From: Candidatus Cloacimonadota bacterium
GTDB taxonomy: Bacteria > Cloacimonadota > Cloacimonadia > Cloacimonadales > TCS61
DNA length: 35,993 bases
Assembly (NCBI GenBank): GCA_018645365.1
Contig: JABGOP010000010.1
Coordinates: 1-35,993, forward strand
Direction: 5' to 3'
Shown: positions 14,910 through 35,993 of the stretch, one piece after another
Position numbering within the stretch: position 1 is the first letter of the stretch
How the letters are laid out: the number at the start of each line of letters is the position of its first letter
Program-made: the position numbers and the translations under genes
Notes under the pieces: generated by a model
What the model saw: only the letters and a program-made list of their open reading frames with translations
The model's database searches: none
Told to the model about the DNA's origin: nothing

Positions 14910-14994
14910 AATTGTTCGTAACACCGTGTGTTAATATCGCAGTTATTGTTTGTTGTGTAGTTGATTCTTTTTATCTTTATTGAGGAGGAAACAA

Positions 14995-17925
14995 ATTAAA
15001 AAAACATTTTTAGTTATTTTAGTATTATTTTGTACAAATTCGTGGTTAGACGCAACCATTATCAATATCCCCGCAGACTACGAGACAATCCAAGCTGGAT
15101 TAAATACTGCCACAAATGGTGATACTGTATTAGTTGCTACTGGAATTTATTACGAAAATATTATTTGGCCGGCTACAAACGGCATCAAACTGATTGGTAG
15201 TAGCGAAGAAAATTGCATAATTGATGGTGATTCTCTTACTAGCGTAATACGCTTTGAAGAGGATTTAAATGGAATTATTAACACGACTACACTAATAACT
15301 GATTTTACGATACAAAATGGTTATGCGCATGGAGATTGGCCAAATGATTTTGGCGGCGGGATTTATTGTAGGAATTCAGATCCGAGTTTAGCTAATGTGA
15401 TTATTACTAACAATTCAGCTTCTGTTGGCGGTGGGATTTATTGTTACTATTCCGAACCGAGTTTTGCTAATGTGATTATTACTAACAATTCAGCTTCTTC
15501 TGGTGGTGGCGGGATTTATTGCAACTATTATTCAAATCTGAATTTAATGGGTGTAAAAATTCACAACAATACAGCTTCTCGTGGTGGTGGAATTTATTGT
15601 AGCGGTTCCAGCCTGAATTTCTCAACAGAAAATAGGTGTAGCATCTACTCCAATAATACAATCAATCGTGAAATTGGGGCAGATATTTACTTTTCTGATA
15701 GTGGCACAATTGAGGTTATTTTAGATACATTTACAGTGATGAATCCTACCAATTATCACGCTTATCCGTTAGATAATTTTACTTTTGATATTGTGCATGC
15801 AGTCCATTCAGAGCAAGTAGATGCAGATTTGTATGTTTCGCCGCTGGGCGATAATAGCAATGATGGTTTAACAGCGGAAACTCCCCTTAAAACGATACAA
15901 TATGCGAATACAATTATACTGGCAAACGAGACTAATCCTCACACAATTCATTTAGCAGATGGTGTCTATAATCCTTCTACTACTGGTGAATTTTTCCCCA
16001 TAGAAGTAATAAATTATGTGTCATTAATAGGAGAAAGTGAAACGGGTGTAATTCTCGATGCCGAAAATGTTGCTGGTGTGATGAGGTGTGAGCACATTAC
16101 ATCTTCCACAATTTCAAATATGACTTTGACAAATGGTTTAGCTTCTAGTGGTGGCGGGATTCGTTCTTTTGAATCCACGCTCGATTTAGAAAATGTAACG
16201 ATGAGTAGTAATGTTGCTGCTTTTTCTGGTGGAGCAATTTATTGTTATGAATCTGATCTAAATTTAACAAATGTAACAATTATTGATAATGTGGCTGCTT
16301 CTGGTGGTGGGGGAATAAACTGTCGTTACAATTCCAATTTAAGTTTAGCAAATGTAACAATCAGTAATAATACTGCTTGTTACGGCGGTGGAATTTATTG
16401 TTACTATGATTCTGAACCGTATTTTTCGGCAGAAAATAAGTGTAATATTTATTCAAATAACAGTGAAGATGAAAATGGAGCAGATATTTATGTGCATAAT
16501 TGCGAGCCGATTGCTGTGATTGTAGATACATTCACAATGAAATATCCGAACGATTATCACGCTTTCCCGTTTGATAATTTTACTTTTGATATTTTGCACG
16601 GGGCGATTGAACAATTTAATGCAAATTTATATGTTTCGGCGGAGATGGGAGATGATAATAATGACGGCTTGACGGCAGAAACACCTCTAAAAACAATAGA
16701 ATATGCGAATACTGTCATCTTGGCAACCGATACTAATCCTCATACAATCTACCTTGCAAACGGAATTTATAGTCTTTCTACTAATAACGAATCTTTTCCA
16801 GTAACAGTTAAAAATTATGTTTCATTGGTGGGAGAATCTGAGGTTGGCGTAATTCTCGATGCCGAAAATGATGCTAGTGTGATGGAATGTGCAGGTGTTA
16901 CATCTGCCACGATTTCAAATATGACTTTAACGAATGGTTCTGCTTATAAAGGCGGTGGAATTTATTGTTTTGGTTCTAATCCAAGTTTGGAAAATGTGCT
17001 AATTTACGAAAATATGGCTTCTTTTGGTGGGGGGATTTATTTCGATGGTTCCAATTCTAATTTAGAAAATGTAACAATTAGTAATAATGTGGCTACCTCT
17101 GGTGGCGGAGTATATTTTCATGGTGGTAGTCCAAATTTGGAAAATACGCAAATTTCCGAAAATACGGCTAAAAATGGCGGTGGGTTTTATTGTTTTGCTT
17201 CCAGTTCAAGTTTAGAAAGTGTAGTAATTTACGGAAATACAGCTGAAAATGGAGGTGGTGCTTATCTTGATATCGCAAATCCGAGTTTCACAAATGTAAC
17301 AATTAATAATAATATAGCTTCTTCTGTTGGTGGTGGAATTTATTCTGCTGATTATTCCAATTCTAATTTGGTAAATTGCGTTATGTGGAGTGATTTACCA
17401 GAAGAAATTTTTGGTAATGGAATAGCTGTAAATTATTCAAATATTCAAGGTGGTTACGATGGTGAGGGCAACATAGATGCCGACCCACTTTTTGTAGATG
17501 CAATTAATGGAGATTTTCATCTTACCGAGTTTTCCCCTTGCATCGATGCGGGTAATCCAAATTCACCGTTCGACCCAGATGGCACCATTGCAGATATGGG
17601 AGCGTTTTATTATCATCAAGATGTTGGAATAAATGATAACGAATTAGCAGTTACTAATTACCAACTATCCAACCACCCCAATCCTTTCACGGGTGAAACC
17701 ACGATTTCTTTTTCTTTAACCACGAATTTACACGAAAAAGCGGAGATAACAATCTACAATGTGAAAGGACAGAAGGTGGAAACTCTCTCAAATCTCCAAA
17801 TCACAAATTCACCAAATCAAGAAATTATTTGGAACGCAAATAATTTCGCCACGGGTGTTTATTTCTATAAACTTGTTGTCGATGGTAACCCTGTCGATAC
17901 AAGGAAAATGATCCTCATTAAATAG
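14995..17925 (+). CDS. Secreted parallel beta-helix repeat protein with sorting tail
   Basis: About 976 residues. A signal peptide (KKTFLVILVLFCTNSWLDA) is followed by three blocks of right-handed beta-helix coils of the pectate-lyase/polymorphic-repeat type (NVTISNNTA-x-x-GGGIYC). Blocks two and three each begin with a DUF1565-like segment (LYVS...NDGLTAETPLKTI) about 266 residues apart, showing internal duplication. The last 80 residues or so are a Por-secretion-like sorting tail (NHPNPFTGETTISF, NVKGQKVETL, GVYFYKLVVDG). A role at the cell surface, perhaps binding or modifying polysaccharide, is inferred; no catalytic site is evident. GAGGAGG lies 6 nt before ATT 14995, exactly where an ATG is expected. 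TTG 14980 is the only conventional alternative and lies before that ribosome site, giving five extra residues. Confidence 0.85.
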   Translation: MKKTFLVILVLFCTNSWLDATIINIPADYETIQAGLNTATNGDTVLVATGIYYENIIWPATNGIKLIGSSEENCIIDGDSLTSVIRFEEDLNGIINTTTLITDFTIQNGYAHGDWPNDFGGGIYCRNSDPSLANVIITNNSASVGGGIYCYYSEPSFANVIITNNSASSGGGGIYCNYYSNLNLMGVKIHNNTASRGGGIYCSGSSLNFSTENRCSIYSNNTINREIGADIYFSDSGTIEVILDTFTVMNPTNYHAYPLDNFTFDIVHAVHSEQVDADLYVSPLGDNSNDGLTAETPLKTIQYANTIILANETNPHTIHLADGVYNPSTTGEFFPIEVINYVSLIGESETGVILDAENVAGVMRCEHITSSTISNMTLTNGLASSGGGIRSFESTLDLENVTMSSNVAAFSGGAIYCYESDLNLTNVTIIDNVAASGGGGINCRYNSNLSLANVTISNNTACYGGGIYCYYDSEPYFSAENKCNIYSNNSEDENGADIYVHNCEPIAVIVDTFTMKYPNDYHAFPFDNFTFDILHGAIEQFNANLYVSAEMGDDNNDGLTAETPLKTIEYANTVILATDTNPHTIYLANGIYSLSTNNESFPVTVKNYVSLVGESEVGVILDAENDASVMECAGVTSATISNMTLTNGSAYKGGGIYCFGSNPSLENVLIYENMASFGGGIYFDGSNSNLENVTISNNVATSGGGVYFHGGSPNLENTQISENTAKNGGGFYCFASSSSLESVVIYGNTAENGGGAYLDIANPSFTNVTINNNIASSVGGGIYSADYSNSNLVNCVMWSDLPEEIFGNGIAVNYSNIQGGYDGEGNIDADPLFVDAINGDFHLTEFSPCIDAGNPNSPFDPDGTIADMGAFYYHQDVGINDNELAVTNYQLSNHPNPFTGETTISFSLTTNLHEKAEITIYNVKGQKVETLSNLQITNSPNQEIIWNANNFATGVYFYKLVVDGNPVDTRKMILIK
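15382..15498 (+). repeat. Intragenic direct repeat, 75-bp period (one beta-helix coil)
   Basis: A 42-bp segment encoding the NVIITNNSAS coil occurs at 15382-15423 and again at 15457-15498 with a single base change. The 75-bp period equals 25 residues, one helix turn, so this looks like a recent duplication of a coil. Confidence 0.85.
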
Positions 17926-20322: not shown

Positions 20323-22071
20323 ATGAAAAAATTGTTTTTTATTGGATTGTTGATGGGGGCGTTACTTTTTGCGCAAAATGTGTGGATAAACGAATTTCAT
20401 TATGACAATGCGAGTACAGATGAAGGGGAATTTATCGAAATTATTTTACAAAATGCAGAAAATTTTGATTTAGCTGAATTTACTGTAACTTTTTACAATG
20501 GTAGCAATGGCACCGAATATGACACCAAAACCTTAGACCAATTTACCGTTGGCGAATCAGTTGCAAATTACACTTTTTTTTACTATTTTAAGGAAGGTAT
20601 TCAAAATGGAGCACCAGATGGAATTGCAATTTCGTACCAAAATGCTCTAATCCCTGGTCAGTTCATTAGTTATGAAGGTGAACTTGAAGCAACCGAAGGC
20701 GTAGCGACCGGCATTACATCCGTTGATATTGGTGTTGCAGAAGGCGGTACTACAGAAATTGGAATGTCGCTTCAACTTTCTGGACTTGGGGCAGAATACA
20801 GCAATTTCATTTGGGTAGAACCAGCCCCAGAAACGATTGGGCAACTCAATAATAATCAAACTTTAGATGGCAATCCTGATCCAACCATTACCGTAATTTC
20901 ACCAAACGGTGGCGAAGAATGGGAACAAGGTTCAATTCACAACATCAATTGGAGCTCTGTTAATTTTGAAGGTAATGTTGATGTTTATCTTTATGAAGCT
21001 TGGCGAGAAAATCGCGAGACCTTGCTTGTTGGAAATATTGAAAATGATGGAATTTGGGAATGGGAAATTCCCGTAGATTTAACTGCACACCCAAATTATA
21101 CAGTTGGTATTTGTGGCGTTATCGATGGTGATCCTTGTGATGTAAGTGATGCTGATTTTAGTATCATTACTCCAGTTTTGCCAGAAGAGCTCACTATTTT
21201 CGACATTCAATACACCCAAAATGAAACTGGTGATTCCGATTATATCGACCAATATATTCAAACAAATGGCGTTGTAACTGCCAAATTTGGAAGCAGTTTT
21301 TTCATTCAAGATGGGATTGGCGAGTGGAATGGAGTTTGCATCTATCCAAATGGGTTTGATGTTACCGAAATTACAGTAGGTCAAAACATCACAATTACAG
21401 GTTACATTGCCGAATACAATGGTAAAACTGAGATTACAGATTTAACAAATATTAGCATCAACGGAACTGAAAATTTACCAGATCCTTCACCTATTTTTAC
21501 TGGTTATATCTCGTTAGAAGATTACAATCCAGAAGCTTGGGAAGGCGTTCTCGTGCAAACGAGTGAAGTTACCATTACAAATCCAGATCTCGGTTATGGA
21601 ACTTGGGAAATTGATGATGGTATAGATTCTTCTGGTCCTTGTGTTGTAGCTCATTCTGGTAGCTATGAATATGTTCCTGTTTTGAATGATATCTTGCCAC
21701 GAGTTGTTGGCATTGTAGATTTTGCTTATGATGGTTTCCGCATCGAACCGCGTGATGATAATGATTTTTTACCTGTTTCTGCTGAAAACAGTGAACTGGA
21801 AATCACGAATTACAATTTGCAAAATTACCCAAATCCGTTTAATCCTTCTACCACGATTTCATTTGATATAATTGATGCTAATTCTTTTGTTACAATTGAA
21901 ATTTTCAATGTGAAAGGACAACTAGTGAAACAATTGGGAATTACGAATTATGAATTAGGCGTTAATCAAGTAACTTGGAACGCGGAAAATTTCTCGTCTG
22001 GAATTTACTTCTATAAACTTGTCGTAGATGGAAAATTGGTTGATACCAAGAAGATGATTCTGATGAAATAA
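20323..22071 (+). CDS. Secreted multidomain protein with OB-fold region and sorting tail
   Basis: 582 residues. A signal peptide (MKKLFFIGLLMGALLFA) is followed by a lamin-tail-like beta domain (WINEFHYDNASTDEGEFIEI, about 20-180). Next is a Kre9/Knh1-type module (ISPNGGEEWEQGSIHNINWS, about 190-285), then an OB-fold-like region typical of extracellular nuclease/YhcR proteins (YIQTNGVVTA, FFIQDG, VGQNITITGYI, about 295-480). The last 80 residues are a sorting tail (NYPNPFNPSTTISF, NVKGQLVKQL, GIYFYKL). The nuclease catalytic domain that often follows such OB modules is absent. AGGAGG precedes ATG 20323. The tail-coding DNA is nearly identical to that of the next gene. Exported role inferred; substrate unknown. 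Confidence 0.82.
   Translation: MKKLFFIGLLMGALLFAQNVWINEFHYDNASTDEGEFIEIILQNAENFDLAEFTVTFYNGSNGTEYDTKTLDQFTVGESVANYTFFYYFKEGIQNGAPDGIAISYQNALIPGQFISYEGELEATEGVATGITSVDIGVAEGGTTEIGMSLQLSGLGAEYSNFIWVEPAPETIGQLNNNQTLDGNPDPTITVISPNGGEEWEQGSIHNINWSSVNFEGNVDVYLYEAWRENRETLLVGNIENDGIWEWEIPVDLTAHPNYTVGICGVIDGDPCDVSDADFSIITPVLPEELTIFDIQYTQNETGDSDYIDQYIQTNGVVTAKFGSSFFIQDGIGEWNGVCIYPNGFDVTEITVGQNITITGYIAEYNGKTEITDLTNISINGTENLPDPSPIFTGYISLEDYNPEAWEGVLVQTSEVTITNPDLGYGTWEIDDGIDSSGPCVVAHSGSYEYVPVLNDILPRVVGIVDFAYDGFRIEPRDDNDFLPVSAENSELEITNYNLQNYPNPFNPSTTISFDIIDANSFVTIEIFNVKGQLVKQLGITNYELGVNQVTWNAENFSSGIYFYKLVVDGKLVDTKKMILMK
21811..22071 (+). repeat. Sorting-tail DNA repeat, copy 1
   Basis: This 261-bp segment encodes the sorting tail of the gene at 20323 and matches 22899-23159 with only scattered substitutions, no indels, and long identical runs. 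The sequence outside the tail is not similar, so the repeat is confined to the tail. Confidence 0.9.
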
Positions 22072-22090: not shown

Positions 22091-23159
22091 ATGAAAAAAC
22101 ACATTTGTTTTTTAGTTTTATGTATTCCACTTTTGGCATTTTCACAAATTATCATCAACACAAACGAATTGGAATACGAATTGGGAGGTTATTATAAAAT
22201 GTATAATATACCTTCTGCTACAGGAGTTATCGGAATGACTGGTATTACAGAAGGACCACACATTTTTGATTTTTCAAATGGACAAGATACGCATATTCTT
22301 ATGTTTGATTATGTTGATGTTTCTGAAGGTGGACACGGTGGCAATTTTCCATTAGCAGAAATAGCAGAACGCAAATCTGGTGATTTCGGTGATGCGATGA
22401 TGTTTCTTAGGAGTTGGCAGAACAAATTACGGTTTTTACGATGAAGCTGGCCTTCCTGAATCACCGTCTATTGCATTCAATCCCGCTATTATTGATTTTC
22501 CAGATAACCTCACATATCAAACTTATTTCACTGGCGAAACTACTTTTGATGCAATAATGCAAAATTTAGAAATCAATATTGAATACACTTTTACGGGATT
22601 TGTAGATGCTTATGGAACTATTATTCTGCCAAACAATTTAGGCACTTTCGATTGTATCCAAGTAAATTATGAAGAAGCATATGTTTATAATTGGATGGGA
22701 TCACCAATACAAAATAGTTATTTGCGATCATACTACTATTTAGTAGAGGAAATTGGAATTGCAGCTATCATCACATCAATAGAAGCTGATAATCCTGTGC
22801 CAAACACATTCAATGTAGCCAATACTATTGCACGGTGTTTTGAAACATCAAAAATCGAAGTTGATGCAGAAGAAAATTTTGAATTGGAAACTGTAGATTA
22901 CAAATTGCAAAATTATCCAAATCCGTTTAATCCTTCTACCACGATTTCATTTGATATAATTGATGCTAATTCTTTTGTTACAGTTGAAATTTATAATGTG
23001 AAGGGACAGATCGTGAAGCAATTGGGAATTGCAAATTATGAATTAGGCGTTAATCAAGTAATTTGGAACGCGGAAAGTTTCTCGTCTGGCATCTATTTCT
23101 ACAAACTTGTTGTCGATGGCAAATTGGTTGATACTAAGAAGATGATTTTGATGAAATAA
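22091..23159 (+). pseudogene. Secreted sorting-tail protein, interrupted by a +1 frameshift
   Basis: Two frames together encode one protein of about 355 residues. The first begins at ATG 22091 after AGGAG with a signal peptide (MKKHICFLVLCIPLLAFS) and runs in frame to about 22408. The second frame carries the rest (GVGRTNYGFYDEAGLPES) through to a sorting tail ending at 23159. The shift occurs at CTT-AGG-A (22406-22412): skipping A22409 after CTT joins FL to GVGR smoothly, and without it translation stops at 22442-22444. It may be an inactivating indel, a sequence error, or a programmed +1 shift. The middle domain is unrecognised. A terminator follows, and the gene is 19 bp after the previous one, so it is likely co-transcribed. 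Confidence 0.8.
22899..23159 (+). repeat. Sorting-tail DNA repeat, copy 2
   Basis: Second copy of the 261-bp tail-coding repeat, same length and register as 21811-22071. It encodes NYPNPFNPSTTISF to the final MILMK. Differences are mostly synonymous. Confidence 0.9.
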
Positions 23160-23172
23160 GGTAAATATTCGT

Positions 23173-23207
23173 AAAAAAACACTCTGACGTTTCGGAGTGT
23201 TTTTTTA
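23173..23207. terminator. Bidirectional intrinsic terminator
   Basis: AAAAAAACACTC pairs with GAGTGTTTTTTT across a loop of about 10 nt. It lies between the frameshifted plus-strand gene and the convergent flippase gene; its T-run reaches the flippase stop codon. Confidence 0.9.
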
Positions 23208-24671
23208 TTTTACACCAATTTTTGAAATTATTCCCCGAATTTTAGCTAATTCTGTTTTTTCGAAAAAACCAAATAAGTAAAGTAAAATCGGGAACAATAA
23301 ACATAAACTTAACTTAAACACTATTTGCAAAAATATTGCATTAAAATTTACGAAAAATTGAATGAGAAATAGAATAAAAGCAACTAATAAAGCAATAAAT
23401 ATTTTGCCAATTTCGTAATTGATTAGATAAATTTTTCGAGATGCAAAATAGAGAATTATCATAATAAATAAAGTTGATAAGACTGTTGAAAAAGCCGCTC
23501 CAGAAATTCCAGTTTGTAAAATTTTGATAAAGAAATAATTCAAACCAAAATTTATCAAAACAGCAACAGAAACGATTACCGCGATCTGTTTTGTCTTTTT
23601 CTTAAAATAAAATGCGAGAGCAAACATATTTTGCAAACCTTTGAAAACAAACGCTAAAGTTATGAATGGCACGATTTTATATGCAATAACATACTCTTGT
23701 TTTTGGGCAAATATTTCCAAAATTTCGCGTGAAAATATAGATAAAGTAAAAGCTCCAAAAAGTAAAATTACTGCAAAATATTTGAACACTTTCTTGAAAA
23801 ATTCTTTTGCGTCCGGTTGTTTGAACATTTTAAACGCAATCGGCACAAAAGCCAGCTGAAATGATTGGACAACGAGCACATTCAAAACACCGGAAATTTT
23901 ACCGCCCAAAGAATAAATACCAACTGCTTCGTAACCCAATAAATAGCGAATAATGTATTTATCGCCAATCGCCAAAAGTTGTACCGAAATCGCGCTAAAA
24001 ATTAGAGGAACACCATAGCCCAACATCTCTTTTATCAATTTGAAATTAAAATGATAATTAAAATTTTTCAGTAAGATTGGAAGCGAAAATATAAACTGCA
24101 AAATATTAGCAATTAATTGGCTGTAGAATATACCAATTACGCCAATGTCCATTTTGACTAAGAAAAAAATATTTAGCAAAAGTACGACACTTAATTTTGA
24201 TACAAAAAAAATGGTGTAAATTGCTGATTGCTCTCTAAATCGGAATAAATTCATCGGCACTTGATTGATAATTTCAAAACCAACTGTCATAAAAATTACG
24301 GTAAAATAATTTACATAATCGGTTGTTCCGAAGAGCAAATTTGAAAATATTTCACGGAATGGATTCAGTAGAACATTCAATAAAATCGCCACAAAAAATA
24401 GCATAAAATATGAGTTAAAAAGTATCGACTTGCGTTCTGTTTTGTCTTCTGTTTCTGCACTCCATCGCATCATTGATGAGACAATTCGCAAACCAAAAAT
24501 CATCGCCATAAACATGGCAGTTGTTTCCAAAATTGTAAATTTACCGTAATCCAAAAGCGTTAATTTAGCGGTGTAAAGTGGCAATAAAACAAGCCCAACA
24601 ACTTTTGTGGAAAAATTTCCTAAACTGTAAATGAATGTGTGTTTAGCGGTACTTTTTAATTTATTTAACAT
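23205..24671 (-). CDS. Polysaccharide/oligosaccharide flippase (Wzx-like, MOP superfamily)
   Basis: A 488-residue inner-membrane protein with about 12-14 hydrophobic helices. The N terminus (FIYSLGNFSTKVVGLVLLPLYT, then LTLLDYGKFTILETTAMF) is the usual signature of lipid-linked oligosaccharide flippases. It should move undecaprenyl- or lipid-linked glycans across the inner membrane. Its ATG lies inside the last codons of the nitroreductase gene, so it is coupled. It is the last gene of the long envelope operon beginning at 34975. The transported glycan is unknown; the neighbouring pyruvyl transferase suggests a pyruvylated sugar. Confidence 0.92.
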   Translation of the reverse strand: MLNKLKSTAKHTFIYSLGNFSTKVVGLVLLPLYTAKLTLLDYGKFTILETTAMFMAMIFGLRIVSSMMRWSAETEDKTERKSILFNSYFMLFFVAILLNVLLNPFREIFSNLLFGTTDYVNYFTVIFMTVGFEIINQVPMNLFRFREQSAIYTIFFVSKLSVVLLLNIFFLVKMDIGVIGIFYSQLIANILQFIFSLPILLKNFNYHFNFKLIKEMLGYGVPLIFSAISVQLLAIGDKYIIRYLLGYEAVGIYSLGGKISGVLNVLVVQSFQLAFVPIAFKMFKQPDAKEFFKKVFKYFAVILLFGAFTLSIFSREILEIFAQKQEYVIAYKIVPFITLAFVFKGLQNMFALAFYFKKKTKQIAVIVSVAVLINFGLNYFFIKILQTGISGAAFSTVLSTLFIMIILYFASRKIYLINYEIGKIFIALLVAFILFLIQFFVNFNAIFLQIVFKLSLCLLFPILLYLFGFFEKTELAKIRGIISKIGVK

Positions 24672-25300
24672 AAATATTTATCCAGGCTTGCTCGTTTAAT
24701 CATATTTTTACCGTGTCTCATTTTTTCAATATCTGGTAAATTTTTCCCAAATCCAAAAACAATTCCACATTGAATTTCTAGATAGTTTGGAATTTTTAAA
24801 CCTTTGTGTAAAAAATATGCTAAACTGTATCTATTTTGACGATGCATTCCAATAAGTTTCAACAATTCTTTCTCAATTTTCTGAACCAAATTCAATTTTA
24901 AATTTTTCTGATAATGCATATTTGTTAAATTGATAATACAGCTATCAAATCCATCGTTTTTTGCTTGCAAAACCATATTTTGAATTGCTAATCCAGCATC
25001 AATGAAAGACATGTTTTTTGCAGATTTTGATTTTTTGTAAAGAGCATTACTGAGAGGAATAGACATATCTCTAAAAATTAAAATTATGTGAGAAACACCT
25101 CTGAAAAAAGGTTTGAAGCAAAGCATTTTTTGAAGTTTTTCATCATCTGCAATAACCAAAAATTTTAGTTCTTGGTTATTGCAACCAGTTGGTGCCCAAA
25201 CACCAGCGTCAATGATTTGTTCAATGTTTTCTTGAGAAATTTTTTCACCAGTAAACACACGAATACTACGCCTTTCTTTAATCAAATTTATTAAATCCAT
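24665..25300 (-). CDS. Nitroreductase-family FMN protein
   Basis: A 211-residue nitroreductase-fold protein. The FMN-phosphate motif RRSIRVF (residues 10-16), the WAPTGCNNQELKFLVI segment and the DAGLAIQNMVLQAKNDG helix are typical. Such proteins often occur beside polysaccharide pyruvyl transferases in glycan clusters, where their role is unclear; a redox step on a sugar or its pyruvyl donor is speculation. The start is ATG 25300, with GAGGT upstream; the longer frame to 25360 runs into the pyruvyl transferase gene. It overlaps the flippase gene by 7 bp. Confidence 0.85.
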   Translation of the reverse strand: MDLINLIKERRSIRVFTGEKISQENIEQIIDAGVWAPTGCNNQELKFLVIADDEKLQKMLCFKPFFRGVSHIILIFRDMSIPLSNALYKKSKSAKNMSFIDAGLAIQNMVLQAKNDGFDSCIINLTNMHYQKNLKLNLVQKIEKELLKLIGMHRQNRYSLAYFLHKGLKIPNYLEIQCGIVFGFGKNLPDIEKMRHGKNMIKRASLDKYLC

Positions 25301-25301
25301 C

Positions 25302-26522
25302 TTACCTCTTTTTTTCAATCTCTGTAAATAATAAATGGATTGATTTATCAATTTCAGCAATTAATTTTTTGTGCATTTTTACTGAATAATTTTCATCAAA
25401 CCAATTTCTATTTTGGTAAAATTCATCAATTTCAGCAAAAGCATCATCAATCGATTTTTTTCTACAATTAATTGCTAAGTATTTTTTATGAAACAATGAC
25501 ATTATATCATTGTATTTTGTGTGCCAAGATAGTGCAATTACAGGGATTTTAATCGTCAAAGCAGAAACTAAAGAATGGTACCGTCCAGTTATGTAAAAAT
25601 CTAATTGTCCTATTATCGCACGAACTTCTTTGTAAGCAAGCGAGGTATCATTTAAAATGAATAATTTGTCGTTTTCTATTTCAGCATAAATTTCTTTTGC
25701 AAAAGCTAAATCACAATTTGTTAAATCTTTTCCATCACCGATTGAATGTGGAATAATCAACACACTATTTCCCTTATCAATCAATTGTTTAATAATCATT
25801 TTACTCAATATTTTATGATTTTTTCCACTACAATTTTGCCTCGAATTTTGTTTAATATTCCTAATCACAACTGATGGAGAAATGCCAACAATTTTGCCTT
25901 TTAACAACATCTTTTCGAGATATTTTTTTGCCCATGTTTTAGATTCAGCATTCAATCCAATCGAAATATCTGGAAATGAGTATAGTAAAGTTTTAAGGTT
26001 CATTTGTTCTAAATTTTTAAGATTTTCTTCACCCCTTACCATCAAAAAAGGCAATTTATTAAAATGACTTTTAATAATTCTACGGTAAAATTTTCCGATA
26101 AATGGACCATAAGATTTTGTGTACTTTAGGTAAATTTTATCATATTTTTCTGCTAATTTTTGAGTAAAAATCACATTAAGCAATTCTTTCCACTTTGTTG
26201 TTTTTGGTAAATTCCCAATAAATTCAATGCCGGCTAAATCGATGATTACATCATTTTGTTTTATTAAATTATTGTATTTTTTAAGTTGTATCCAATCATT
26301 CAAAGAAAATAATGTAGAACTTTTTAAACGAGGTTTAATGAATAATTTTAAGTTATTCTTTTTTGCAAAAATTTTATCTTCACGAATATATTTTGTATCT
26401 GATATTGTAATGGAAATTTCCGCATCTATCCTGTTTCTAATTTTTTCAATTAATGGTAATAATAAAGCCTGTGCACCATAATTATGATGAAAATATGCTA
26501 AATCTGTAATTAATATTTTCAT
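25302..26522 (-). CDS. Polysaccharide pyruvyl transferase family protein
   Basis: A 406-residue cytoplasmic enzyme of the CsaB/WcaK type, which adds a pyruvate ketal to a sugar of an envelope or exopolysaccharide using phosphoenolpyruvate. Supporting segments are the N-terminal LAYFHHNYGAQALLLPLI, the middle MVRGEENLKNL, and the C-terminal ITGRYHSLVSALTIKIPVIA with the conserved RYHS. Start ATG overlaps the glycosyltransferase stop (ATGA). The acceptor sugar is not visible from sequence. The following nitroreductase starts 2 bp after its end. Confidence 0.9.
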   Translation of the reverse strand: MKILITDLAYFHHNYGAQALLLPLIEKIRNRIDAEISITISDTKYIREDKIFAKKNNLKLFIKPRLKSSTLFSLNDWIQLKKYNNLIKQNDVIIDLAGIEFIGNLPKTTKWKELLNVIFTQKLAEKYDKIYLKYTKSYGPFIGKFYRRIIKSHFNKLPFLMVRGEENLKNLEQMNLKTLLYSFPDISIGLNAESKTWAKKYLEKMLLKGKIVGISPSVVIRNIKQNSRQNCSGKNHKILSKMIIKQLIDKGNSVLIIPHSIGDGKDLTNCDLAFAKEIYAEIENDKLFILNDTSLAYKEVRAIIGQLDFYITGRYHSLVSALTIKIPVIALSWHTKYNDIMSLFHKKYLAINCRKKSIDDAFAEIDEFYQNRNWFDENYSVKMHKKLIAEIDKSIHLLFTEIEKKR

Positions 26523-27694
26523 TTTTCAAAAACTCTCTGATACATTTCAATTAATTTTTTTGAACTATTTTGCCAGTTATATTTTGTCTCAACTGCCACC
26601 TTACCATAATTCCCCATTTTTTGGCAAAGTTTATCATTTTTTAATAACAGTTTAATCTTTTTGGCTAAATCTCCAGAATCTTTATCTTTATAAACAACAC
26701 CACAACCTACCTTTTTCACGATTCGTTTTACAGAATCACAATCACTCACTACAATTGGTTTTTGGGAAAACATGTACTGAAAAAGTTTATTTGGTGAAGA
26801 GTTGTTAGTCTGAATCGAGCGGAGATGCGTAATTATTGCAATTTGTGCTTTTTGTAACATCATCATCATTTCTGAATAATTTTTCCAACCGTAAAATTCT
26901 ACATTATTCGATAAATTCTCAGTCATAACTTTTTGACGCAAGATCTTTTCGTAACTACCGCTACCAACAATTTGCAACCTAATTTCAGGATATTCTTCTT
27001 TAATTATTTTAATCGCATCAATCGCTATCTGCAATCCACGATGGTAATTTATACCACCCGAATAAAAAATATTAATTTTATCATCGTCTTTTTTATTTGC
27101 ATTTATTATGAAGTTTTCAAGCTCAATTGTATTTTGCAAAACTGAAATTTTATTTTCTTCAATTTCAAGTTTGCAAATCCGATTTTTCATCTCCTCAACA
27201 ACAGTTATAACAGCATCTGCCCTCTTTGTATATTTTTTTTCATAATTTTCCCATTGCTTATTTGAAGATAGCATTTTGCCCAAAAAAGTGTTTGTGTGAA
27301 CAGCAATTTCTAGTGCAGCTGGCCAATTTTCATGCAAATCTAAAATAAAAGGAATTTGAAATTTATCTGCAAATTTATCTGCAATTTTTGAAAGCGGCAA
27401 ATCGTGCAGATGAATTGCATCAAATTTATATTGTTGGAAAATTTTTGTTAACAACTTTTTCCAATACAAAAAATAAAAAGAAAATTTTAAAGCACCAACA
27501 CTTGTTTTATAAATAAATTTTGACATTTTATGCTGATGTATAATTGCATCATTCCAATGTTTTATTTCATTTTCTGAATCAACAGAAGATGTTAATAAAA
27601 CAATTTCATATCCTGCCGCAATTAGTGATTTTATCTCTTTTTCTACCCTTACATCTGGTGGAAAATTTCTTTCTAAAATCATTAGAATTCGCAT
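26519..27694 (-). CDS. GT4-type glycosyltransferase
   Basis: A 391-residue GT-B glycosyltransferase. The N-terminal domain has the start ILERNFPPDVRVEKEIKSL and the segment FDAIHLHDLPL; the C-terminal domain has FYSGGINYHRGLQIAIDAIK, LQIVGSGSYE and SPNKLFQYMFSQKPIVVSD. It would transfer an activated sugar onto a glycan or lipid acceptor at the inner face of the membrane. The ATG directly follows the TAG of the LptG-like gene (TAGATG), with AGAGGTG upstream, and its stop overlaps the pyruvyl transferase start. Donor and acceptor unknown. Confidence 0.93.
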   Translation of the reverse strand: MRILMILERNFPPDVRVEKEIKSLIAAGYEIVLLTSSVDSENEIKHWNDAIIHQHKMSKFIYKTSVGALKFSFYFLYWKKLLTKIFQQYKFDAIHLHDLPLSKIADKFADKFQIPFILDLHENWPAALEIAVHTNTFLGKMLSSNKQWENYEKKYTKRADAVITVVEEMKNRICKLEIEENKISVLQNTIELENFIINANKKDDDKINIFYSGGINYHRGLQIAIDAIKIIKEEYPEIRLQIVGSGSYEKILRQKVMTENLSNNVEFYGWKNYSEMMMMLQKAQIAIITHLRSIQTNNSSPNKLFQYMFSQKPIVVSDCDSVKRIVKKVGCGVVYKDKDSGDLAKKIKLLLKNDKLCQKMGNYGKVAVETKYNWQNSSKKLIEMYQRVFEK

Positions 27695-28779
27695 CTACAC
27701 CTCTGCTTTTACAACGAAAATAATGCCAACAAATGCGAAAACAATATTCGGTAACCACGCAGCCATAAATGGCGATAACACTTCATTATAACCCAAACTT
27801 TGACAAATTCGCAAAGCCGATAGATACAAAAAACAGACCAAAAGTCCGATGGCAAAAACCATTCCTCGCCCCTTACTACGTGACATCGTGGATACAAGCG
27901 GCACACTAAACAACAAAATAATCAAATTGGCAAACGGAAATGAAATTTTTAAGTTTAATTCAACGAGTTCTTTGCTATATTTTTCACCGATTTTTTTCAA
28001 TCGCTTGATGTATTCTTTTAGTTCGAAATAATTCATTGAAATTGGTTTTTTGGCACTCTTAATAAAATCTATTGGTTTTACATCTATTTCAGCAATTGTA
28101 GTTGAATCATAGTGGATTAGTTCCTCAAATTTACCATTTTTGAAGATTCTGATATCACAATTTTCAAACTGCCATGCACCATTTTTCCAATCGGCAGAAG
28201 TGGCAGTAATTTTCTTATTCAAAACACCTCTTTTCTCATCGTAATTTGTTACATCAATAGTTTTTAGCGTATTTCTGTAACCATCAAAAAAGCCGATGTA
28301 GTAAAGATTATTATTTTGTCCCAAATAATTTATGTGCGATCGCATTTTGTTATCTTTCACTTTCATATTTTTGATTTTTTCGGTATAAATATAATTTCGA
28401 TATTCTTCTGCTTTTGGTAAAACAAAATCACCAAAAAACATAATAAATATACTGAAAAATAGACCAAACCAAATGAGCGGAGTTATCATTCTAAAAATGC
28501 TGATGCCAGCAGCGCGAATAGCAATCGACTCACTATATTTAGATAAATTGTTCATTACAAAAAGCCCAGAGAGAAGGATAATCACCGGCGATGCAAGTAA
28601 CATCAAATATGGAATTCGAAGTACAAAATAGGCAATAATATCGCTAATTTCTGCACTTTTTCGAAGTAATCGCGGCAATCTGTCTGAAATATCAACAACA
28701 AGAAACAGCACAAAAAATGAGAATAAAATCACCAAAAATGTGGTAATGTAAGATTTCAGAATATACTTATCTAAGATTC

Positions 28780-28783
<4 letters not shown>
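27695..28783 (-). CDS. LptF/LptG-family permease (shorter paralogue)
   Basis: A 362-residue YjgP/YjgQ-family protein, the usual length for LptG. Three N-terminal and three C-terminal membrane helices flank a periplasmic beta domain (about residues 110-260). In the LptB2FG ABC exporter, LptF and LptG pull lipopolysaccharide from the inner membrane into the Lpt bridge. The N terminus MRILDKYILKSY parallels that of the preceding paralogue (MKILEKYILKEN). ATG 28783 overlaps the previous stop as ATGA; a longer frame to 28900 would lie inside the upstream gene. No lptB or lptC is in the window. Confidence 0.9.
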
Positions 28784-32078
<3,295 letters not shown>

Positions 32079-32128
32079 TTATGTCAAAAAAGCGAACTTA
32101 TCTTTATCGGCAACCATTTTTTTCAAAA

Positions 32129-34975
32129 TTAAAATTCCGCTTTAATTTCTGCACTAAATTTATGTAAATCATCTTCATTTGGATATTTTTGACCAGAATA
32201 TTTGAGTGAAAACGAAGTATAATTATTTAGTGAAAAATAGACATTTGAGAACCACTTAAAGATAAAACCATCTTTTTTTTCGTTGTAATATCCACTAAAA
32301 TCAGAAAAGTTTCTTTTGCAAGTTAAACTAGCTAACAACCTGTATTTACGCTTCCAAAAACAAGTCAAATGTTCGTTAATTCGCAAAGATGTGATTTGAT
32401 AATTTGATGTATCAAAACCACTTTCTTCCGAAAAGTCAAAGGTCGATTGCAAAGTAAAATTACCTGTCATTTTATTGCGAATGTCTAATTGAATAGAATT
32501 TATTTCGCTTTGCACACTGTTGATTTTAGATTTTGCATTTTCAAAGATTATTTCGCTGTTTGTGTTTCGCAAAAAATTCAAATTAAATTTTGCTTCGAAA
32601 AATTGCGTTTCTCTTTTTTCCATCTCATCATTGTAGCGCGTATCTATTATTTTTTCATTTTTAATTTTGAAACGAGATGTCACTTTTTTGCCAAAATCAA
32701 TCCATAAAATTTGCTGAATTTTACAGCTTCCATAAAGAGTGAAATTTTCGTTCAATAAAATATTTTGATCTAAATAATAAACTCTCATCTTCTGTGGACT
32801 TTTGGAATTTTCTGAAATCATTAAATGTGATTCTGTCCTAAAAATTTTCAAAAAAGAATTTGTTAGTAAATTCGGATTTACAAAAAATCTAAAATTAGCA
32901 TTTAACTCAATTGACGGTTGTGGATTTTCATAATCAACACCTGTTATCACATAATCATATTCACCATTTTCGGCAATATTACCCAAACTATCGTAAACGC
33001 CAAAATCATCGCCAACAAATTCTAAAGCACGAGTCTTTTCATAAAATTCTACATTTTTCAAAGTATAATACGAATTAAATTTTAGCAAATTTTGGAAAAA
33101 TGAATTGTGCAAATTCACATCTGCCACATCATAACTTTGTTGAATAGAATCTCTTACAATCCGTTTTGCAACATCAATTTTAACACGATGATTTTGCGAA
33201 ATTAGCATTGATTTAATTCCATATGTTTCCGATAATTTTTCATATTCATTATTATTTTCAAAAAAAAGTTGAGATGAAAAATTGTTATTTTTGAGTTCAA
33301 TAAAATATTTTTTTTTGCGAATTTCTGTCGTATTATTCGCCATTTTACTTAAATAATTTAAACCAAAATCAAAAAACTTAGTTTTGTAATTTGCATCTAG
33401 CGAATAAAGTTTAATGTTTATCTCATTTTGTTCGAAATTTAAAAAACGGTGGAATATTTTTGGAAAATATTTTTGTTGATTAAAATTTGAATTTAACGAA
33501 AAATATCGAGACTGATTTAGAAAAATTTTGTAAAATAATTCTGGTTTATAAAAATCGAAAATATTTGCATAAAAGTTTAGTGAATATTCATCAATTTGCG
33601 TCAAATTTTCGGTTTCGCCAATCTCATAAATTTCTGTGGAATTTTTGATGTCGGCAAGAGGTGAAATGTTTTCACCTAAATGACAATAATTAAAAATAAA
33701 TTCAGAATTAAATAAATTCGGCTTGATAGCAAATTCGACATTTCCAGCGTAATCAATTGTGTCTTTATCGCTTGCAAAATATGTATAAAGCCCCTCTGCA
33801 GCAAAACGAAACACGCTTTTTTGGTAATTTAATTGCACATTAACATTCGTTCTGTTTTCTGCTATTTTGGTGGAATCAGCAGAAAGTGGATTTGCACTAT
33901 CATCATTTTGCACCATTAAATGAGTATTTAATTTCAAGTTTTCAACAAATGTGATTTCTGCTGATGTTAGATAAAGATTTTGTCTAAAATTTTCGTCCGA
34001 ATATTGAAAAATAACTCGAATGTGCGATGCTGAAGAGATAAAATGCAAATTTGTAAATGTAATACTTCCCTCTGTGTAATCAACGATATAATCTGCCCCA
34101 CGCTCCATTTTAACGCCATTCAAAAAAACAGACTCAGAAGCGGGGACAAGTTTCACACCAATCGAATTTACAGCAATATAATAGGGACCTTGTTTCGCTT
34201 CTTCTGCCTTGATGACAGTTGTTTTATTTTTTCCTTTGGAAATTGCCATTGCACCAGAAAATTTATGTTTATCTTTCCAACCAAGTTTCACACCTTCAAA
34301 TTTAGGAAAAATATTCATGAATTTTGTGTTCGAAAATTGCATCTCTGAATCACCGAAAGCAATATCGTAATTTTTACCATAAAGTTTTAAATAGATATTG
34401 TCTATTTCACTGATATATCTGGAATTACCTTCAGGCGTGATGGGCGATTTGCTGTCGGTTAATTGTGCTTTAATTTTTATATTTTCACTAATATTTCCAT
34501 CAATTTTTAGAAATAAGGATTGATTGATTTGTGGCTCGCCCTCTGCTACAGAAACAAGAATTGTTTTATTCCCGCTAATGTCGATATTCGAGCCGTAACG
34601 AAAAACATTTTTGGGCTTTATCGAAGGAATATAATCCAAAGAATCTACATAATCTAGCACCAAATAGTAACTGAATTTATTCAATAATTTGGAAGGATAA
34701 ATTAAAAATTCAATGGTAATTTTTCCAACTGCTTTCTTGAAAAATATTTGCCCTTTTTGATAATCAATTTGATAGTCATTATTTTTGGTAAATTGGAGAG
34801 AATCGTTAAACACTCTTTCCGAGTTGATAATGATATTTTTTTGTTGTAAATCATAAACTTGTGGATTTTTGATATAACTTTGCCTTTGCTGTACCATTGG
34901 CGAAACAAAGTTGTAACCTTCCAAAAATACAGATGCAAACAAAAACAACGCAATTATCAAATGTCTTTTTTTCAT
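32129..34975 (-). CDS. Large exported outer-membrane-type protein with SprA-like strand motifs
   Basis: 948 residues with a signal peptide (MKKRHLIIALFLFASVFLEG). The rest is dominated by alternating hydrophobic/polar strands rich in aromatic residues, ending in KFSAEIKAEF, as expected of an outer-membrane beta barrel with a terminal aromatic residue. Two segments, NNDYQIDYQKGQIFF (about 66-80) and VFLNGVKMERGADYIVDYTE (about 295-314), match the 'xxNGxxxxxGxDYxVDYxxGxIxF' pattern that I know from SprA, the type IX translocon barrel of Bacteroidetes, which is much longer. Function unassigned: a translocon-like channel, a glycan export pore and a structural barrel are all possible. It heads the operon with ligA, LptF/G and glycan genes. 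Confidence 0.72.
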   Translation of the reverse strand: MKKRHLIIALFLFASVFLEGYNFVSPMVQQRQSYIKNPQVYDLQQKNIIINSERVFNDSLQFTKNNDYQIDYQKGQIFFKKAVGKITIEFLIYPSKLLNKFSYYLVLDYVDSLDYIPSIKPKNVFRYGSNIDISGNKTILVSVAEGEPQINQSLFLKIDGNISENIKIKAQLTDSKSPITPEGNSRYISEIDNIYLKLYGKNYDIAFGDSEMQFSNTKFMNIFPKFEGVKLGWKDKHKFSGAMAISKGKNKTTVIKAEEAKQGPYYIAVNSIGVKLVPASESVFLNGVKMERGADYIVDYTEGSITFTNLHFISSASHIRVIFQYSDENFRQNLYLTSAEITFVENLKLNTHLMVQNDDSANPLSADSTKIAENRTNVNVQLNYQKSVFRFAAEGLYTYFASDKDTIDYAGNVEFAIKPNLFNSEFIFNYCHLGENISPLADIKNSTEIYEIGETENLTQIDEYSLNFYANIFDFYKPELFYKIFLNQSRYFSLNSNFNQQKYFPKIFHRFLNFEQNEINIKLYSLDANYKTKFFDFGLNYLSKMANNTTEIRKKKYFIELKNNNFSSQLFFENNNEYEKLSETYGIKSMLISQNHRVKIDVAKRIVRDSIQQSYDVADVNLHNSFFQNLLKFNSYYTLKNVEFYEKTRALEFVGDDFGVYDSLGNIAENGEYDYVITGVDYENPQPSIELNANFRFFVNPNLLTNSFLKIFRTESHLMISENSKSPQKMRVYYLDQNILLNENFTLYGSCKIQQILWIDFGKKVTSRFKIKNEKIIDTRYNDEMEKRETQFFEAKFNLNFLRNTNSEIIFENAKSKINSVQSEINSIQLDIRNKMTGNFTLQSTFDFSEESGFDTSNYQITSLRINEHLTCFWKRKYRLLASLTCKRNFSDFSGYYNEKKDGFIFKWFSNVYFSLNNYTSFSLKYSGQKYPNEDDLHKFSAEIKAEF

Positions 34976-35049: not shown

Positions 35050-35993
35050 CTAGTCACCTACTGGAAATTCGTCAATTAAACCAACTGCATATTGCAAAAT
35101 CAAGGAAGCATCGTAAGCTTGAATTTGACCATTTCCATCTACATCGGCAACAAAAACTTGATTTTCATTAAACTCAATTAAGCCCACAGCATCTTGGAGC
35201 GTCAATGATGCATCGTAAGTTTGAATTTCGCCGTTGTAATCTACATCACCATGATTCATCTCACAATAAAATGCTCCCATTTCTACAATGCTTCCATCTG
35301 GATCGAGTGGTGAGTTTGGATTACCGGCATTTATACAAGGAGAATTAAAAGTTAAATGATAATTATCATTGGCTGCATCAACGAAAAGTGGGTCTGTAGC
35401 TATGTTACCTGCTTCCCAATAAACTGTGCCGTTATCATCTGTTACAATGCCGTATTCTCCACCTTGAATATCAGAATATGCAATTGTAATTGTATTTGCG
35501 CCAGGATATCCATAAAAATAAATCTCTTGCGGTGAATCATTCCACATAATGCAATTCAACAGGCTCGGGCTGGAAGAATTGCGACAATAAATCCCGCCGC
35601 CAGTTGTAGCCGAATTACCCGAAATCGTCACATTCAACAAATTTGGATTGGAATTAGAATAGCAATAAATTCCACCACCTCTTGAATTAGCGATATTATC
35701 ACTAATTACCACATTTACCAAACTCGGGCTACTGGAAGAAGAACAAAAAATCCCACCGCCAGAACTAGCTGAACTGTTTGTTATCGTTACATTCTCTAAG
35801 CTCGGATTGGAAGAAAAGCAATAGATTCCGCCTCCAGTAGAAGCTGAGTTGGTGCTGATTGTTACATTTACCAAACTCGGACTGGAAGAAAAGCAATAGA
35901 TTCCACCTCCATTATAGGTAGCTGAATTAGCGCTGATTGTTACATCCAGCAAACTTGAATTAGACTCATAGCAATAAATCCCGCCACCATAAC
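35050..35993 (-). CDS. Beta-helix repeat protein with C-terminal dockerin-like domain (partial)
   Basis: The 3' part of a gene that continues past the right window edge; 314 codons are visible and the frame is open to the edge, so the start is not in the window. At least six beta-helix coils (SLVNVTISTNSASTGGGIYC and variants) are encoded by near-identical DNA repeats of about 60-70 bp. After a closing segment (DPLFVDAANDNYHLT, SPCINAGNPNSPLDPDG) the protein ends in two calcium-loop repeats, GDVDYNGEIQTYDASLTLQ and ADVDGNGQIQAYDASLILQ, which match type I dockerin duplicates. Unlike the other exported proteins here it has no sorting tail. A surface or complex-bound role is inferred. Confidence 0.88.
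   Translation of the reverse strand, partial: YGGGIYCYESNSSLLDVTISANSATYNGGGIYCFSSSPSLVNVTISTNSASTGGGIYCFSSNPSLENVTITNSSASSGGGIFCSSSSSPSLVNVVISDNIANSRGGGIYCYSNSNPNLLNVTISGNSATTGGGIYCRNSSSPSLLNCIMWNDSPQEIYFYGYPGANTITIAYSDIQGGEYGIVTDDNGTVYWEAGNIATDPLFVDAANDNYHLTFNSPCINAGNPNSPLDPDGSIVEMGAFYCEMNHGDVDYNGEIQTYDASLTLQDAVGLIEFNENQVFVADVDGNGQIQAYDASLILQYAVGLIDEFPVGD

Follow-up and report, generated by a model that had tools for sequence, protein, structure and literature searches.

All eight open reading frames (ORFs) that a sequence-only reading had joined into an envelope operon headed by a SprA-like barrel were present at their coordinates, tightly packed on the minus strand. The window, that is, the whole stretch of DNA that was analysed (35,993 nucleotides), belongs to a Candidatus Cloacimonadota genome of 1.79 Mb that is 97% complete. 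The leading ORF (32129..34975, minus strand) encoded a protein of 948 aa, which the reading frame, its homologues and an AlphaFold2 model identify as a putative giant outer membrane (OM) beta-barrel of the SprA superfamily. Pfam and NCBIfam supported the assignment of the other seven genes, all on the same strand: ligA, a neighbour outside the module discussed below that encodes an NAD-dependent DNA ligase (30072..32075); the LptF/G permease genes lptF and lptG (27695..30075); and the genes for a glycosyltransferase (GT4), a polysaccharide pyruvyl transferase, a nitroreductase and a polysaccharide flippase (23205..27694). The barrel gene was separated from ligA by 53 bp. The subsequent distances were −4 (ligA/lptF), −121 (lptF/lptG), 0 (lptG/GT4), −4 (GT4/pyruvyl transferase), −59 (pyruvyl transferase/nitroreductase) and −7 bp (nitroreductase/flippase). 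The value of −121 was based on a mechanically assigned GTG start of lptG, for which an ATG 39 codons further in provides a conventional start, and the value of −59 likewise derives from a mechanical start.

While the ORFs, gene families and spacing of the proposed operon stood, the grouping was unique to the window among 40 barrel loci from 39 Cloacimonadota genomes (3.6–20 kb each, several on short contigs). Synteny did not extend across the phylum: the seven downstream genes were found beside the barrel in none of the 39 other loci, including those of the same genus (tblastn, E ≤ 1e-5). Since these genes adjoin the barrel only in the window's own locus, the grouping of barrel and ligA is local and specific to this genome. 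The position of the barrel in front of ligA-lptFG is most likely without functional meaning, and a functional operon with ligA and lptFG was rejected, as this gene arrangement occurred in only 1/40 barrel loci. The linkage to ligA, lptF/G and glycan genes being absent from the other loci, a reading as a glycan exporter gains nothing from it. Elsewhere in Cloacimonadota, the barrel often adjoined PspC-like, GmhA-like, Dtd-like and HAD-like genes, and in another family it lay beside TPR, LexA-like and permease-like genes (all names assigned by eye from the sequence). Upstream of the barrel in the window, at a distance of 74 bp, a gene for a beta-helix protein with a terminal dockerin-type domain (35050-35991, minus strand) was cut by the window edge.

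Three ORFs on the plus strand matched Por_Secre_tail, and the earlier observation of sorting-tail proteins in the same region was thus correct. They encoded a beta-helix protein with a type IX secretion system (T9SS) sorting tail (14980..17925), a tailed protein that is probably a cargo of the organism's own T9SS (20323..22071; 39 bits, cut-off 27) and the second part of a frame-shifted T9SS-tail cargo gene (22557..23159), the first part of which lies at 22091-22444. The signal-peptide half and the tail half of this last gene (22091-23159) are in different frames, as in a pseudogene or an assembly error.

The barrel protein and its relationship to SprA

The protein consisted of a putative signal peptide, an N-terminal module, the predicted barrel and a C-terminal Phe. 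It had no match in Pfam at E ≤ 1, no identity was obtained from PDB sequences, and a single-sequence search of the genome collection matched 19 stretches, none of which was confirmed. The searched copies of Pfam and NCBIfam contained no family for this barrel, and nothing on a short SprA-like barrel was found in the titles and opening lines of abstracts in the literature.

Profile–profile alignment (hhalign) revealed two N-terminal blocks shared with SprA/Sov, the T9SS translocon (PDB 6H3I, 6H3J, 8GL6, 8GL8). Block 1 (approximately residues 116-261; 34193..34630, minus strand) corresponded to about positions 146-308 of the SprA profile, with a probability of 94.2% (E 1.1e-7) against the N-terminal piece of SprA and 89.8% (E 1.8e-6) against the whole of it. 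Block 2 (approximately residues 260-359; 33899..34198, minus strand) contained a DYxIDYxxG hairpin and corresponded to positions 588-687, with a probability of 97–98% (E 3.6e-11 to 6e-14). In the alignment of the family profile, both blocks were collinear in the barrel family and in Cloacimonadota SprA. The control profiles, namely reversed SprA, five column-shuffled SprA profiles, Omp85, M6, PorV, DUF5683 and NHL, reached at most 1.4%. When 32 barrels from outside Cloacimonadota were compared with SprA on their own, the probability was 97.0% (E 9.4e-11). The C-terminal barrel did not match SprA significantly in sequence (8.5%). The SprA model TIGR04189 (cut-off 200 bits) yielded nothing at E ≤ 1 for the window protein and matched 4/37 family members, with a best E of 2.6e-10. 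Because two collinear blocks match while the controls stay at or below 1.4%, profile comparison establishes homology between SprA and the N-terminal part of the barrel family; the remainder is too diverged to tell.

The AlphaFold2 model of the window protein had a mean pLDDT of 84.5 and a pTM of 0.71, and that of a full-length relative (L120) had values of 85.8 and 0.72. The window protein is thus confidently predicted to form an OM beta-barrel of very large size. The description as SprA-like accordingly applied to the predicted OM barrel fold and the two N-terminal blocks, but not to the C-terminal barrel at the sequence level. DSSP alone, which does not provide an exact count, assigned 39–40 predicted strands of at least 8–9 residues after residue 129 of the L120 model; the barrel of SprA has 36 strands (PMC10994853). 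The protein had been called far shorter than SprA. This was true of the chain (948 versus approximately 2000 aa) but not of the predicted number of strands, which is about the same: the slim barrel has about half the length of SprA and a similar predicted strand number.

A Foldseek search with the L120 model returned SprA entries as the top four matches (E 2e-12 to 5e-10), followed by the next best at 4e-9. Their overall superposition was poor, with TM-scores by query of 0.25–0.30 and an rmsd of 25–31. VIA-align matched 683 residues to SprA over positions 129-1088 of the L120 model (Z 15.7, rmsd 8.3). The VIA Z values of porins, ushers and other barrels equalled or exceeded that of SprA, which occupied rows 35 and 33 in two listings. 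With the model of the window protein, SprA ranked sixth, after SlpA-type, LptD and Mtr barrels. Given this rank and the equal or higher Z values of other barrels, the predicted folds alone are weak evidence for kinship with SprA.

The window copy was shorter than its 36 relatives. These measured approximately 1040–1230 aa, mostly 1070–1140 aa, and the difference from the 948 aa of the window copy is in part due to the in-frame loss of a segment of about 90 residues. The junction was located at 33855..33875 (minus strand), where the profile match was split (33862/33872, model positions 375 and 469). The segment is rich in YVGxGxGxY motifs and lies between two predicted barrel strands, as judged from the strand spacing in both AlphaFold2 models. 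Among the 37 aligned members it was missing from the window copy only; by eye, the motifs were also lacking in one protein from outside Cloacimonadota (L221).

Distribution and association with type IX secretion genes

Barrel homologues were found in 109/124 Cloacimonadota genomes and in 68/70 of the good ones. Outside the phylum, a profile search detected a strong barrel (E ≤ 1e-27) in 44/214 genomes, and 84/214 matched at a looser threshold of E ≤ 1e-3. The 32 outside barrels aligned with the Cloacimonadota barrel profile with 100% probability over 1056 columns. The barrel belongs to a family of giant OM beta-barrels that is widespread and uncharacterised and has a common ancestry with SprA.

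The barrel had been proposed as a missing OM component for protein or glycan export in this lineage. This was not sustained, because the genome of the window encoded a separate SprA (G000:C18, 1990–1992 aa, over the family cut-off), an LptD_2, a PorU-like protein and PorV-family proteins. The PorU-like gene encoded 1043 aa and scored 399 bits, just under the cut-off of 420. Homologues of sov, porU and porV had been named as informative. SprA exceeded its cut-off in 108/121 Cloacimonadota genomes, and LptD_2 was present in 109/121. The classical LptD family (PF04453) was matched weakly in 3/121 genomes, none of them over the cut-off. The barrel resembles LptD and LptD_2 in being a large OM barrel with LptD chains among its fold matches, but no LptD or OstA profile matched the window protein (Pfam) or any of the 37 members. 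The barrel as the missing SprA or LptD was ruled out by the separate SprA and LptD_2 in the same genome. The possible presence of T9SS in Cloacimonadota has been mentioned before (PMC11285876); by term search, the available text of a study cited there (PMC8542988) names the system only in its reference list. In the genome of the window, the SprA gene (L094:6126-16955) was followed by genes for MlaD, an ABC auxiliary lipoprotein, MlaE and an ABC ATPase, and the loci L097-L099 had a similar layout, judged from ORF lengths only. This gene order suggests a link of the T9SS translocon with a Mla-type lipid transporter.

Outside Cloacimonadota, SprA was found in 43/44 barrel genomes, the exception being G226. 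Among the 170 genomes without a strong barrel, 9 had a strong SprA, or 35 when weak matches were counted (Fisher p 5e-35 and 2e-22, respectively, not corrected for phylogeny). The absences behind these counts are soft, since often no more than two candidates per genome were scored. The table was tallied by hand, with 44 genomes having a barrel at E ≤ 1e-27 and 49 having SprA at E ≤ 2e-40; G162, G190 and G307, in which frames of 1766–2221 aa matched SprA in pieces, were added to the latter, and 26 further genomes had weaker matches. Because SprA occurred without a strong barrel in 9 genomes, and a weaker SprA did so in 26, the range of the barrel is almost nested in that of SprA. Three of the 9 genomes were at least 90% complete (G184, G235 and G320). 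PorU (NF033707) was matched in 46/46 of the barrel genomes searched, which included 44 from outside Cloacimonadota, and in 0/14 of the control genomes included in the same search. The match was over the cut-off in 36/46 and weakest in G190 (2e-13). The PorV family was present in 10/10 barrel genomes searched. The co-occurrence of barrel and T9SS may stem from the shared ancestry of the lineages.

Gene order was compared in 35 outside loci. The matches listed comprised 36 outside genomes with a strong barrel, from which G178, with a 434-aa frame, was left out; G153, G204, G212, G244, G249, G280, G300 and G307 were also outside the sample. The order was derived from a six-frame count, with distances taken between stop-to-stop frames. 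An NHL gene lay directly upstream of the barrel in 25/35 loci. Directly downstream, the commonest gene, in 23/35 loci, was a BamA/TamA-type Omp85, a family to which the barrel does not belong. The count of 23 is a lower bound, as the barrels of L206, L209, L229 and L232 were less than 900 bases from the contig start on the downstream side. A gene for PorV or an M6-metalloprotease-like protein was near and on the same strand in 11/35 loci, upstream of the conserved order of NHL propeller, barrel and Omp85. The barrel is thus often encoded with T9SS genes outside Cloacimonadota, in agreement with the type IX link that had been suspected from the window. Genes labelled C25, PorV, M6 and DUF5683 occurred together upstream of the barrel in 9/35 loci, G226 included; the C25 label came from a mixed alignment, and the positions from the PorU profile are firmer. 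These placed a PorU match less than approximately 10 kb upstream of the barrel and on the same strand in G132, G148, G189, G222, G225, G226, G253, G258 and G333. The order in L231 was PorU, PorV, M6-like, DUF5683, NHL, barrel and Omp85, where PorU and the PorV family exceeded their cut-offs in profile scans and the M6-like match was below its own.

The downstream Omp85 had POTRA domains and measured 455–692 aa in 17 ORFs. Of 17 barrel genomes without an adjacent Omp85 in a first pass, 14 had an Omp85 of 543–642 aa with an E of 1e-60 or better; the remaining three contained an 804-aa frame (G317), a 405-aa piece (G148) and a 615-aa candidate at 1e-55 (G225). The Omp85 matches were weaker in the barrel-less SprA genomes G184, G235 and G320 (best E 3e-51 to 9e-31, frames of 771–864 aa), with an additional 647-aa frame among those of G235. 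In Cloacimonadota, an Omp85 of the partner type (463–649 aa, E ≤ 1e-63) was counted by eye in 86/98 genomes and was mostly unlinked to the barrel. The same search found a second, BamA-sized Omp85 of approximately 740–800 aa, longer than the partner type. Among 20 Cloacimonadota Omp85 loci, PorV and M6 were linked in L240, L241, L242 and L254 and near in L239, and in L251 the partner-type Omp85 was one gene away from the barrel. None of the 40 Cloacimonadota barrel loci had an Omp85 next to the barrel or an NHL gene before it. The genome of the window retained a partner-type Omp85 elsewhere (G000:C1:31171-32754). T9SS genes also adjoin an Omp85 gene in Flavobacterium johnsoniae, where porG and skpA are at the bamA locus (PMC12611786). 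Both the T9SS genes and the Omp85 are different ones there, and the available text of that study describes no such barrel.

One run of genes in G226 (98% complete; L233, G226:C2:50000-65304) comprised PorU, PorV, M6-like, barrel and Omp85. SprA was not detectable in this genome, which possibly has a T9SS equipped with just the slim barrel, or an assembly gap.

Possible role of the barrel

On balance, we lean towards the barrel being an unrecognised member of the SprA superfamily that serves a T9SS-linked module as an accessory component in the OM. It would act as a second channel, or as a barrel for docking, used by a subset of the cargo or in the attachment step of PorU/PorV, and the neighbouring Omp85 would insert the barrel or work together with it. 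On this reading, the gene has moved away from its partner genes in the window, where it has also lost approximately 90 conserved residues. Unlike SprA/Sov, with which it shares the two collinear blocks and roughly as many predicted strands, the barrel is half as long, lacks a full-length TIGR04189 match, has a C-terminal barrel unrecognisable by sequence and coexists with a separate SprA in all but one of the 44 barrel genomes outside Cloacimonadota.

A SprA-descended barrel might instead function outside the T9SS, as a general OM pore or as a lipid or glycan exporter, with the gene order reflecting a common OM-biogenesis (Omp85) locus. The direct neighbours are Omp85 and NHL, while PorV/M6 are confined to 11/35 loci; the Cloacimonadota neighbours recognised by eye (GmhA, Dtd, PspC, LexA-like or TPR) include no T9SS genes, and G226 has the barrel without a detectable SprA. 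Against this stand the presence of SprA in 43/44 barrel genomes outside the phylum, the PorU match in 46/46 searched, and the C25, PorV, M6 and DUF5683 genes that together precede the barrel in 9/35 loci, that of G226 among them. We regard this explanation as possible, if doubtful.

It is improbable that the protein is an ordinary large barrel of the porin or receptor type that resembles SprA by chance through its DYxxDYxxG hairpin. The phage tail models TIGR02217 and NF052337 did match 27/37 and 23/37 members, with the hairpin as the matched part of the window protein, and porins and ushers reached similar or higher VIA Z values. Yet the hairpin-free block (approximately residues 115-260, aligned to SprA 146-308) was also homologous and collinear, the hhalign controls were negative, and 0/37 members matched a TonB receptor or a porin in Pfam at E ≤ 0.1. 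Least credible by far is an envelope operon whose barrel supplies the OM partner that LptF/G and the glycan genes lack, or the SprA that the lineage lacks: the close packing with the lptF/lptG genes seen in the window and the beta-barrel fold would fit, but SprA and LptD_2 are widespread in the phylum and both present in the same genome, the barrel is next to ligA/lptFG in a single locus, and it matches neither LptD nor OstA.

The preferred reading, an accessory component linked to the T9SS, has a further-reaching form that we put forward as speculation and consider unlikely as a whole. Many lineages would have two SprA-superfamily barrels per T9SS, with SprA exporting the bulk of the cargo and the slim barrel, with its dedicated Omp85, providing a second route such as the surface attachment of PorU, PorV and M6; the slim barrel might even be the sole translocon of at least one lineage (G226).

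For annotation, the results correct the reading of this protein as a SprA-like partner of LptF/G or ligA. If the accessory role is true, the type IX pathway has a conserved component in the OM that has been overlooked so far, and the NHL protein, the giant barrel and the Omp85 would form a defined three-gene unit that is open to functional testing. Because an Omp85 of its own often accompanies the barrel, the unit would also be a natural system for studying the insertion of very large barrels made of a single chain.
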